64,000 nt of DNA from Saprospiraceae bacterium (GTDB lineage Bacteria; Bacteroidota; Bacteroidia; Chitinophagales; Saprospiraceae), in NCBI GenBank assembly GCA_022448945.1, contig JAKVCV010000011.1, positions 394,515-458,514 on the forward strand, given 5' to 3'. A program made the position numbers and the translations under genes. Each line of letters starts with the position of its first letter. Positions within the stretch are counted from its first letter, which is position 1. The notes under the pieces were generated by a model. That model was given only the letters and a program-made list of their open reading frames with translations, did no database searches and was not told the origin of the DNA. Below, in pieces: positions 42,155 through 45,427 of the stretch.

Positions 42155-42715
42155 TTAAAAAGGGCTATTTACAACATTTTTTGATTCGACCATGCCTTTT
42201 ACTTCATAAATTTCCCAGTTCGTAAAATCTAAATTGGATTTAAATCCAAATCCTGTAATAATTTGTGAAGGGGTAGTGATTTTTACAAATTTGTTTGAAT
42301 AGATTTGTTCTGAAGGTTCATCCCATGTCAATTGATTAGTTTCCAATAGTTCCTTTTTGCTGTTCCAAATTCTAACGCTGTCTTTCAGGTACACAATATG
42401 TTCTTTTTGGAATTGTTCTGCATATTTAGCAACCAATCTACTCGTTTGAATATGATGGTCATTATAAAAATCTACTTCTACGCCATCTGGAAAAATTTGT
42501 TTTGGGTTTTTTTTATCAATGTATCTTAATAAAGTGGGAGCATGTATTTCAACCCGTACTATTGCTGAGTCGCTATATAATAATTGAACCCCACTGACAC
42601 GTTCAATCCCAAAATTGTCTTCTAATGTTATATCTTCTAAGTCTTCAAGTTCATTTCCATTACAAGATGTTAATGTCATTGCTAAGAATAGAAAAAATAT
42701 TTTAAGCTGATTCAT
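42155..42715 (-). CDS. lptC: LPS export lipoprotein LptC
   Basis: From the ATG at 42715 the product has 186 residues and a lipobox (LTSC, Cys18); an upstream ATG at 42742 would add nine residues before the signal and is less likely. The body shows the OstA/LptC-like beta-jellyroll pattern with VQLLYSDSAIVRVEIHAPTLLRY and the DGVEVDFYN segment common in Bacteroidota LptC. LptC passes lipopolysaccharide from LptBFG to LptA across the periplasm. Bacteroidota LptC proteins are often lipoproteins rather than membrane-spanning. It precedes the CorC-type gene on the same strand. Confidence 0.82.
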   Translation of the reverse strand: MNQLKIFFLFLAMTLTSCNGNELEDLEDITLEDNFGIERVSGVQLLYSDSAIVRVEIHAPTLLRYIDKKNPKQIFPDGVEVDFYNDHHIQTSRLVAKYAEQFQKEHIVYLKDSVRIWNSKKELLETNQLTWDEPSEQIYSNKFVKITTPSQIITGFGFKSNLDFTNWEIYEVKGMVESKNVVNSPF

Positions 42716-43010
42716 TATAATTTCCAAATTGATATTGATCATAATATAAATTTATATAAATATAGTTGTTTTGTAACTTTATTGTTTAATTTTTAGTTTA
42801 ATTAATTATAATCAAAATATATGTTATAACATCTCTAAATTTAGTTAAAAATTTGTTGAAATGCTCTAACTATATAAGATTACATATTGAACTAAAAACT
42901 TCTCTAATTTAACTTTATAACTTTTTTTGTCTAAAAGCAAAAGTTTTGTTAAATAGGGCTGTTAAAATTTGGAAATATAGACTTTTAGTGTTAGATTTAT
43001 TCACCATAAA

Positions 43011-43059
43011 AGTTTAAGTGGAGTAACTCGATATCAGTCTGGTTGCTCCACTTTAAACT
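43011..43059. other. Long hairpin in the lptC-hpf intergenic region
   Basis: agtttaagtggagtaac (43011-43027) pairs with gttgctccactttaaact (43042-43059), with one bulge and one mismatch, around a 14-base loop. It is not followed by a T run and is far from any gene end, so a terminator is unlikely. The 527-base gap 42716-43242 contains no ORF of note; a small RNA or a regulatory leader for hpf is possible. A partial direct repeat (aggcaacaataaca / aggcaacattaaca) lies at about 43060 and 43115. Confidence 0.5.
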
Positions 43060-43242
43060 AAGGCAACAATAACACAATGGTTCATGAACTGCCGTCTAAT
43101 AACTTTGGTTTTGAGGCAACATTAACAAGGGATAATTTATATATATCTTTTTTGCATCTTGAGGTGTTTTTTTATTCTAGAATGTCGGGGCAATTGTTTT
43201 CAAAACTATAGGCAAAATATTTAATTAATAAAACTGACTCAT

Positions 43243-43539
43243 ATGGAAATCACGAAACAGGCCTTAAACTTTGAAGCTGATTCTAAACTTATGGAATTTG
43301 TTGATAAAAAGTTGGTCAAATTGGAAACTTTTTTTGACAACATTGTTAGTGCTGATGTTTGTCTAAGATTACAAAAAACCGGACAAGTACAAGATAAAAT
43401 TGCTGAAATTAAAGTGAAGGTTCCTGGTTCTGTTTTAGTGTCAAAACAAACAAGTAAATCTTTTGAGGAATCTGTTGATTTAGGAGCTTCTTCTTTAAGA
43501 AGACAATTAATAAAGTATAAATTGAAGAAATACAAATAA
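43243..43539 (+). CDS. hpf: Ribosome hibernation-promoting factor, short form
   Basis: The 98-residue product matches short HPF/YfiA proteins: QALNFEADSKLMEFVDKKLVKLETFFDNI at the start, a VCLRLQKT strand, and a basic C-terminal helix. It binds the decoding region of 30S subunits and stabilises inactive ribosomes in slow growth. It stands just before the tRNA-tuf promoter, as in other Flavobacteriia. Confidence 0.9.
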   Translation: MEITKQALNFEADSKLMEFVDKKLVKLETFFDNIVSADVCLRLQKTGQVQDKIAEIKVKVPGSVLVSKQTSKSFEESVDLGASSLRRQLIKYKLKKYK

Positions 43540-43564
43540 AAAACACCGTTTTTCTATAAAAAAT

Positions 43565-43594
43565 TTTGAGATTTTAAAAAAGGTTGTATATTTG
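43565..43594 (+). promoter_or_regulatory. Promoter of the tRNA-tuf operon
   Basis: TTTG at 43565-43568 and an exact TATATTTG at 43587-43594, separated by 18 bases, fit the Bacteroidota -33/-7 promoter form. It is upstream of four tRNAs and tuf. Confidence 0.65.
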
Positions 43595-43656
43595 CAAGCG
43601 CTTAGAGGGATAGCCCTCTTCGAAGTTCTTAAAAAAGCAAGTATACAACCTTTTTT
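43576..43656. repeat. Inverted repeat mirroring the promoter
   Basis: Bases 43576-43595 (which contain the -7 element) are repeated in inverted form at 43637-43656 with 19 of 20 matches. Between them lies a second small hairpin, agaggg/ccctct at 43604-43619. The right copy ends in a nine-T run. On the minus strand it presents a -7-like TATACTTG. Confidence 0.85.
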
Positions 43657-43659
43657 TTT

Positions 43660-43733
43660 GCCGATATAGCTCAGCTGGCTAGAGCAGCTGATTTGTAATC
43701 AGCAGGTCGTGGGTTCGAGTCCCTCTATCGGCT
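43660..43733 (+). tRNA. trnT: tRNA-Thr (anticodon TGT)
   Basis: Acceptor GCCGATA pairs with TATCGGC; the anticodon loop is tttgtaa with TGT, reading ACA codons. A standard GGTTCGAGTCC T-arm is present. The 3' CCA is not encoded. It is the first of four tRNAs before tuf. Confidence 0.95.
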
Positions 43734-43775
43734 CTTTTGCATAAACAAAATTAAGTGAAATCTTAGTTTTTGGAA

Positions 43776-43858
43776 GGGGGTGCGCCGGAGTTGGAGAGCC
43801 GGGCCAGACTGTAAATCTGGTGTCTACGACTGAGTAGGTTCGAGTCCTACCACCCCCA
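43776..43858 (+). tRNA. trnY: tRNA-Tyr (anticodon GTA)
   Basis: Acceptor GGGGGTG pairs with CACCCCC; the anticodon loop is ctgtaaa with GTA. A long variable arm (tgtctacgac region) makes it a class II tRNA of 83 bases, as expected for bacterial tRNA-Tyr. Confidence 0.95.
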
Positions 43859-43912
43859 CTGATATGCTTTTATTATAATTTAAGTATTTTGTGCTCAAAT
43901 TTATGATTAAAA

Positions 43913-43985
43913 GCGGGAGTAGCTCAGTTGGTAGAGCATTAGCCTTCCAAGCTAACGGTCGCGGGTTCGAGTCTCGTCTCCCGCT
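43913..43985 (+). tRNA. trnG: tRNA-Gly (anticodon TCC)
   Basis: Acceptor GCGGGAG pairs with CTCCCGC; the anticodon loop is cttccaa with TCC, reading GGA and GGG codons. Confidence 0.95.
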
Positions 43986-44057
43986 CAAATTAAATTTTGT
44001 AAGGAACTTTTGTTCCTTTATTATTTATATATAGAGCATTTGAAATTTGGCGATTTC

Positions 44058-44129
44058 GCCAACGTAGCTCAGGGGTAGAGCACCACCTTGGTAAGGTGGG
44101 GGTCGGCAGTTCAATTCTGCTCGTTGGCT
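44058..44129 (+). tRNA. trnT: tRNA-Thr (anticodon GGT)
   Basis: Acceptor GCCAACG pairs with CGTTGGC; the anticodon loop is ttggtaa with GGT, reading ACC and ACT codons. It is a second threonine isoacceptor in the same operon and the last tRNA before tuf. Confidence 0.95.
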
Positions 44130-44239
44130 CTATTCTTCATTAATTGAAAAGAAATAAACAATATAGTTACCACTTATAATGGTGTTGTGTTGTTTTATTA
44201 AAAAACATTTATTAAACATTTTAATTATCTAGACTAATC

Positions 44240-45427
44240 ATGGCTAAAGAAACGTTTGATCGCTCAAAGCCCCACGTTAATATAGGAACTATTGGACACG
44301 TGGATCATGGTAAGACCACTCTTACTGCTGCAATAACTACGGTTTTGGCAGATTCAGGTCTTGCTGAGAAAAAAGACTATTCATCTATAGATGCTGCTCC
44401 AGAAGAAAAGGAGCGTGGTATTACTATTAATACAGCACATGTTGAATATGAAACTGTAAATCGTCATTACGCACACGTAGACTGTCCGGGTCACGCAGAT
44501 TATGTAAAAAACATGGTAACTGGAGCTGCTCAAATGGATGGAGCTATTTTAGTTGTTGCTGCAACAGATGGTCCTATGCCTCAAACTCGTGAACATATTT
44601 TGTTGGCGCGTCAGGTAGGTGTACCTAAGATTGTTGTTTTTATGAACAAAGTTGATCTTGTTGATGATCCAGAAATGCTAGAACTAGTAGAAATGGAAGC
44701 AGGGGAGATTTTAGAATCTTATGGATTTGAAGATTGTTCAGTTATTCAAGGATCTGCACTTAAAGCATTAGAAGGAGATGCTGGTGGTGTTGCTGCAATC
44801 AAAGAATTAATGGAAGCTGTTGACAATGATATTCCACTGCCAGTTCGTGATGTAGAAAAACCATTTTTAATGCCAATTGAAGATGTATTTTCTATAACAG
44901 GTCGTGGTACTGTTGCTACTGGACGTATTGAAAGAGGTGTTATTAATACAGGAGATGCTGTTGATATTATTGGTTTTCAAGCTGCTGGAGAAAAATTAAC
45001 ATCCACTGTGACAGGAGTTGAAATGTTCCGTAAAATTTTAGATCGTGGTGAAGCTGGTGATAATGCTGGTCTACTATTAAGAGGTGTTGATAAGGAAGCG
45101 CTTAAAAGAGGTATGGTAATCTGTAAACCAGGTTCTGTTAAACCGCATACTAAATTTACTTGTGAAGTATATGTTCTAAGTAAAGAGGAAGGTGGTCGTC
45201 ACAAACCATTTTTTAATGGGTATCGTCCGCAATTTTATTTCCGTACTACTGATGTAACAGGTGCTATCCAGCTTCCAGAAAATGTAGAAATGGTTATGCC
45301 TGGGGATAACCTTACAATTACTGTTGAGTTGATTGCTCCTATTGCTATGGAGAAAGGATTGAGATTCGCAATCCGTGAGGGTGGACGTACTGTAGGTGCT
45401 GGGCAAGTAACAGAAATTCTTGCGTAA
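44240..45427 (+). CDS. tuf: Elongation factor Tu
   Basis: The 395-residue product is a complete EF-Tu. GTP-binding motifs are GHVDHGKT at 19-26, DCPGH at 81-85 and NKVD at 136-139; the switch I segment [17 protein letters not shown] is present, as are the aminoacyl-tRNA binding domains ending in AGQVTEILA. It carries aminoacyl-tRNA to the ribosome with GTP. It follows four tRNA genes and is followed by tRNA-Trp and secE. No fusA or S10-cluster gene is near; this is the tufB-like position. Confidence 0.99.

Follow-up and report, generated by a model that had tools for sequence, protein, structure and literature searches.

In Escherichia coli, the frd terminator overlaps the ampC attenuator, and the hairpin acts on the downstream gene's own transcript too. 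Fold-back inhibition in IS10 and IS50 relies on a hairpin that is formed only by incoming transcripts and hides the translation start. In the boxB-boxA leaders of rRNA operons, a small hairpin followed by a GTTCTT-type motif lies early in the leader of a stable RNA. Intrinsic terminators and Bacteroidota sigma-A promoters are each well known; at the locus described here, between a presumed ribosome hibernation gene (hpf) and a tRNA-tuf operon, the new part is their apparent superposition in a form that would spare the operon's own RNA.

Promoter and inverted repeat between hpf and the tRNA-tuf operon

The locus belongs to a marine Saprospiraceae bacterium, a relative of Aureispira, and lies in a window (the whole stretch of DNA analysed) of 64,000 nucleotides. 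The upstream, co-directional gene is one that we take to be hpf, a name that comes from the sequence-only reading and from family knowledge; the first matches of its product in a protein search were Aureispira contigs, with 82% and 79% identity. Downstream lies an operon of four tRNA genes and a gene that, by family knowledge of its sequence, is presumably tuf. The genus search gave matches in 9/9 genomes, the host's own counted in. The gap between hpf and the operon holds an inverted repeat of 20 nt, 95% complementary and with arms 41 nt apart; its single T-G mispair in DNA is a wobble pair in RNA. The stem and its T run span 37 to 120 nt 3′ of the hpf stop codon.

Table 1. Features of the hpf–tRNA-tuf region, numbered from the first nucleotide of the window.
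Feature	Position	Strand	Basis or remark
hpf-like ribosome hibernation factor gene (presumed), 98 aa	43243-43539	+	ORF; co-directional upstream gene
-33 element TTTG of the tRNA-tuf promoter	43565-43568	+	sequence; 18 nt before the -7 element
Left arm of the stem, AAAAAAGGTTGTATATTTGC	43576-43595	+	inverted-repeat search; about -23 to -4
-7 element TATATTTG, within the left arm	43587-43594	+	sequence
Predicted transcription start, ~43599	43598-43600	+	from the TAnnTTTG placement in Flavobacterium psychrophilum
Inner hairpin AGAGGG-ATAG-CCCTCT	43604-43619	+	formable in both transcript kinds
boxA-like GTTCTTA (tentative label)	43625-43631	+	presumed from likeness to the boxA motif
Right arm of the stem, GCAAGTATACAACCTTTTTT, within the operon leader	43637-43656	+	inverted-repeat search
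Nine-T run at the stem base, abutting the tRNA; its first six T are right-arm bases	43651-43659	+	sequence
tRNA-Thr(TGT), first gene of the tRNA-Thr/Tyr/Gly/Thr-tuf operon	43660-43734	+	
tuf (EF-Tu, presumed), 395 aa	44240-45427	+	ORF

Two studies (PMC7366714, PMC9723704) give TTTG / TAnnTTTG as the consensus of the Bacteroidota sigma-A promoter, and the tRNA-tuf promoter fits both boxes, the second as TATATTTG. Because the TAnnTTTG box of Flavobacterium psychrophilum lies at -12 to -5 (PMC9723704), the start is predicted at ~43599, and the left arm would end about 4 nt 5′ of it. RNA born at this promoter would therefore lack the left arm.

The -7 end and start region (43591-43603) have the form TTTGCNN(N)CGCTT, which by eye recurs in many Saprospiraceae tRNA-tuf fronts and, in one genome (G021), in promoter-like stretches that lie in tandem ahead of the 16S genes. 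It is possibly a signature of stable-RNA promoters; the full pattern has only four matches in the 458.5 kb of the window's contig. Four genus genomes hold stand-alone second tRNA-Thr(TGT) genes (L047-L050) that have a similar promoter, lack the mirrored arm and follow a co-directional frame ending ~140-185 nt upstream. In other genus loci (L051, L055, L056, L057), arrays of 13-18 tRNA genes within ~3 kb include a tRNA-Thr close to the chromosomal copy; these arrays look like mobile or phage-type ones.

A long imperfect hairpin, AAGTTTAAGTGGAG...CTCCACTTTAAACT, occupies 43010-43060 in the 500-nt gap before hpf and has no T run. A search of Rfam with 42700-44300 returned only tRNAs at gathering score, with nothing for the stem or for this hairpin; matches to let-7 and mir-1175 were weak, far under the gathering score, and were discarded.

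Folding of the two transcripts

The sequence-only reading had described 20 nt, the -7 element among them, that recur inverted 41 nt away with one mismatch, and the repeat withstood shuffling. The 85-nt strand folds at -36.1 kcal/mol as compared to -13.9 ± 3.1 kcal/mol in shuffled sequences (z -7.1; 0/200), and pairing of the left arm with the leader scores -25.5 as compared to -8.1 ± 2.0 (0/500). The second hairpin that it placed between the arms and the run of nine T are present in the sequence as well. Of the inverted repeats listed for the window, 21 in all with a length of 16 nt or more, three are 18 nt or longer and pair at 95% or better: the promoter element and two hairpins with short loops (gaps of 7 and 1 nt).

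In the minimum-energy fold of the hpf read-through RNA all 20 arm pairs are formed, with a mean probability of 0.97-0.98 over three transcript lengths; in RNA starting at 43599 none of the 20 is. Since the left arm lies upstream of the predicted start, the 20-bp stem is impossible in the operon's own leader, and in these folds it would be formable only in RNA arriving from hpf. A leader structure, one of the possibilities raised earlier, thus holds for the read-through RNA and fails for the RNA that the promoter itself makes.

The repeat shows two features of an intrinsic terminator: RNA coming from the gene upstream folds into a stable hairpin, and a U tract lies directly 3′ of the stem. We compared it with 110 hairpin-plus-T6 sites in 458.5 kb of one contig, 30 of which follow an ORF of 100 codons or more on the same strand at a distance of up to 250 nt and are not themselves inside an ORF. 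Among these 30, the element ties for the best pairing score and has the lowest fold energy, the latter helped by its inner hairpin. Its 41-nt loop is far above the 3-6 nt that prevail in the stronger terminator-like sites of the contig, and a simple terminator scan for loops of 3-8 nt did not return it; a short loop is usual and not obligatory, so the long one lowers confidence in a terminator and does not exclude it. Only one of the 110 sites, this element, carries TAnnTTTG in or beside its left arm, a count that proves nothing alone because the frequency of the motif predicts about one such overlap by chance. A DNA search of the host's genome with 43540-43740 gave eight matches: the query site on each of the two strands, a promoter that resembles it and five tRNAs. 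No second copy of the element was among them.

We consider it fairly probable that hpf has its intrinsic terminator in the inverted repeat, whose 5′ arm also houses the tRNA-tuf promoter. RNA entering from hpf would carry both arms, fold the 20-bp stem and stop in the T run. RNA born at the promoter would carry only the right arm and the T run, form no stem and, because the 5′ arm is missing, continue into the tRNAs and tuf; the element would thereby sort transcripts by their place of origin. The earlier suggestion closest to this one was that the right copy, with its T run, could pause polymerase; an action on polymerase is retained here as termination, which we infer together with an insulating purpose. 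The cell needs a hibernation factor and EF-Tu in opposite growth states, which would make insulation sensible: the growth operon would be shielded from the hibernation gene in very little DNA.

Conservation and alternative explanations

Ten Aureispira rows were aligned, from nine genomes of the genus and from Aureispira sp. Cli_1 (L068). Nine are distinct, as the L043 leader equals that of L042; L066, L067 and L069 repeat the same 140 nt as L039, L040 and L046 and were left out of the row statistics. In 10/10 rows hpf lies upstream on the same strand, the -7 element is identical, and the longest T run in the last 30 nt before the tRNA has 6-9 T. In L068 this run adjoins the stem base with one G between, and 11 other bases precede the tRNA. 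Conservation of the inverted copy, the comparison that the sequence-only reading had proposed, gave a divided answer within Aureispira. Arm pairing is kept at 0/500 shuffles in six of the nine distinct rows (the window, L039, L040, L041, L042 and L068); it has decayed and lost significance in the other three (114, 38 and 67 of 500 shuffles in L044, L045 and L046). A scan of L069, identical in sequence to L046, found no replacement hairpin. Decay in a third of the distinct rows, with no replacement found in the one of them scanned, counts against a terminator.

Twenty-five loci were found via hpf, 21 outside Aureispira and four within, L066, L067 and L069 included. A short-loop hairpin with a T run lies within 70 nt of the hpf stop codon in 12 of the 21 outside loci, and a -7 match follows that hairpin in nine of these and is missing in three. 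An hpf terminator is thus common in relatives, and none was found as a separate element in the four Aureispira loci scanned. The scan also detected no short-loop hpf terminator in 9/21 outside loci, so loci without one are not confined to Aureispira. (By eye, L077 shows a GC-rich hairpin and a T run; the scan did not score it and it stands outside the count.) No hairpin covers the -7 element in any of the 16 outside loci that have a -7 match; the other five lack a match in the stretch scanned, and three of the outside loci have no tRNA within the locus. By comparison, such a hairpin is present in three of the four Aureispira loci and absent from one (L069). The nearest -7 match follows the hpf stop codon by 47-74 nt in Aureispira versus 73-336 nt elsewhere. 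Comparison of gaps and hairpins across the hpf loci therefore points to a short gap in Aureispira with terminator and promoter superposed. On balance we favor, by a little, a start-selective terminator that uses the untranscribed part of a promoter as its 5′ arm, and that would have arisen in Aureispira as the region behind hpf became shorter and the terminator of that gene merged with the tRNA-tuf promoter.

The same RNA anatomy would also suit a processing or 3′-protecting element, an RNase III-type site that parts hpf mRNA from tRNA-tuf RNA with little termination, and a structured loop of this size is unusual for a terminator here. Processing leaves unexplained why the T run is kept in every row and why a separate hpf terminator, present in so many relatives, was not found in the Aureispira loci. 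We regard it as unlikely.

A broader set of operon fronts bears on the leader itself. Outside the GTDB genus 67 were collected, 27 among the matches listed and 40 from further down the list, the latter chosen among loci whose match reached the first tRNA. With L028 dropped for want of its first tRNA 66 were kept, and as L102 and L124 have no -7 match, 64 were tested; their -7 matches were picked automatically and some picks may be wrong. A hairpin over the -7 element occurs in one of these 64 Saprospiraceae fronts, L037, which is Aureispira Cli_1 again, the same as L068. It is also the only front whose promoter-leader pairing reaches 0/300 shuffles; the lowest counts among the other 63 are 6, 8 and 13 of 300 (L108, L034 and L030).

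In two related Lacibacter loci from the hpf set (L085, L086), the -33 region TTTGCTGTTTT pairs with the leader AAAGCAGCAAA (1 and 2 of 200 mononucleotide shuffles). No T run accompanies this pairing, and a separate hpf hairpin with a T run is present. The pairing may be a second kind of promoter-leader pairing, or chance.

The operon's own leader, with its inner hairpin, boxA-like GTTCTTA and U-rich stretch, might instead be an antitermination or tRNA-processing unit in which the right arm resembles the promoter only by coincidence. The motif GTTCT[TA][AG] occurs in 8/10 Aureispira rows, and among leaders from further afield (L074-L090) 16 of 17 hold G[TA]TCTT, a count made without a chance control; the inner hairpin appears in the promoter-born folds of the rows examined, weakly in L046 and in a different form in L068. 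Such a unit does not predict a right arm that pairs with untranscribed promoter DNA, as it does in the six rows at 0/500 shuffles, and among the other Saprospiraceae leaders only that of Aureispira Cli_1 behaves in this way. This account appears no more likely than processing. In the tRNA-Thr leaders of L074-L090, G[TA]TCTT often follows a CCC...GGG hairpin and looks like a boxB-boxA leader. GTTCTT is absent from the 420 nt before two 16S genes of G021, and the genus leaders hold a GTTCTTA-like motif; no 16S rRNA gene was found in the assemblies of G000 and G199, and the host's genome gave none.

The changes within the arms suggest pairing in RNA. Over 180 cells, the arm pairs comprise 135 Watson-Crick, 23 G-U, 6 A-C and 16 other combinations. 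Without RNA pairing G-U and A-C would be about equal, so the G-U excess points to plus-strand RNA; this support is modest, with an excess of only 8 to 4 by distinct pair positions and among related rows. The left arm varies little, as required of a promoter. In seven of the nine distinct rows the plus strand gives the better fold of the two strands, which favors a terminator. The minus strand does so in L045 and L046, and this speaks against one, as does the lack of two-sided covariation (0/20 pairs, and 0/21 in another test); in the covariation test, 73/500 shuffles reach the observed pairing.

These changes also bear on a DNA palindrome, another of the earlier suggestions; two regulator sites at the tRNA-tuf promoter would then be bridged or bound apart. 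In the window the copies differ hardly at all and the -7 element falls within the left one; compared with the window, L068 has a spacing shorter by 11 nt, about one DNA turn. The -7 element lies 54-58 nt from the right-arm base in nine rows, a spread of 4 nt, and 44 nt from it in L068. The right-arm changes lean to G-U pairs and not to symmetric DNA, and the host's genome yielded no second element. We do not favor a palindrome and judge it very improbable.

Still less probable is a functionless, neutral remnant of a local inverted duplication, which would agree with the decayed rows and with the missing covariation. In the tree, the two main branches within the genus both carry the strong pairing form, as does the distant L068; loss elsewhere is then the simpler reading (four of the seven inner branches are unresolved). 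A neutral remnant does not account for arms kept so widely despite diverged hpf and tRNA flanks, nor for the T run that adjoins the base of the stem wherever they are kept.

A divergent promoter in the right arm, firing antisense towards hpf, is barely tenable and is rejected as the best refuted of the rivals. In its favor, minus-strand TATACTTG is one base off the -7 consensus in the window, and L039 has an exact TATATTTG. Against it, the exact minus-strand TAnnTTTG is found in only this one of the 10 rows, and the position where a -33 TTTG would be needed falls in the tRNA 5′ end, where the window has none.

Implications and comparison with known systems

If a terminator with an embedded promoter is the correct reading, one short piece of DNA would both end the transcription of one gene and start that of the next, and transcripts would be sorted by origin without a dedicated protein. 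A hibernation gene and a growth operon would be kept apart by a natural insulator of compact form. The element would also caution that searches for terminators restricted to short loops may overlook superposed signals. The literature within reach (titles and abstract openings, with most subscription papers outside) held no promoter-terminator superposition of this kind in bacteria.

Intrinsic (Rho-independent) terminators after hpf in Saprospiraceae and Chitinophagales (L072, L074, L085, L088) likewise place a stem directly followed by a T run shortly after the stop codon. Their like has loops of 3-10 nt, whereas the loop here is long and structured, and unlike in ordinary intrinsic terminators the 5′ arm here doubles as the promoter of the next operon. 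The tRNA-tuf leader resembles boxB-boxA leaders in its small hairpin followed by a GTTCTT-type motif, with a function that is putative here. As in frd-ampC, one hairpin would end one operon within the control region of the next; in contrast to frd-ampC, RNA born at the promoter would lack one arm. The element shares with IS10 and IS50 a local promoter that starts inside the hairpin, so that foreign transcription would be neutralized, but here the T run points to transcription termination, and the operon is a chromosomal housekeeping one.
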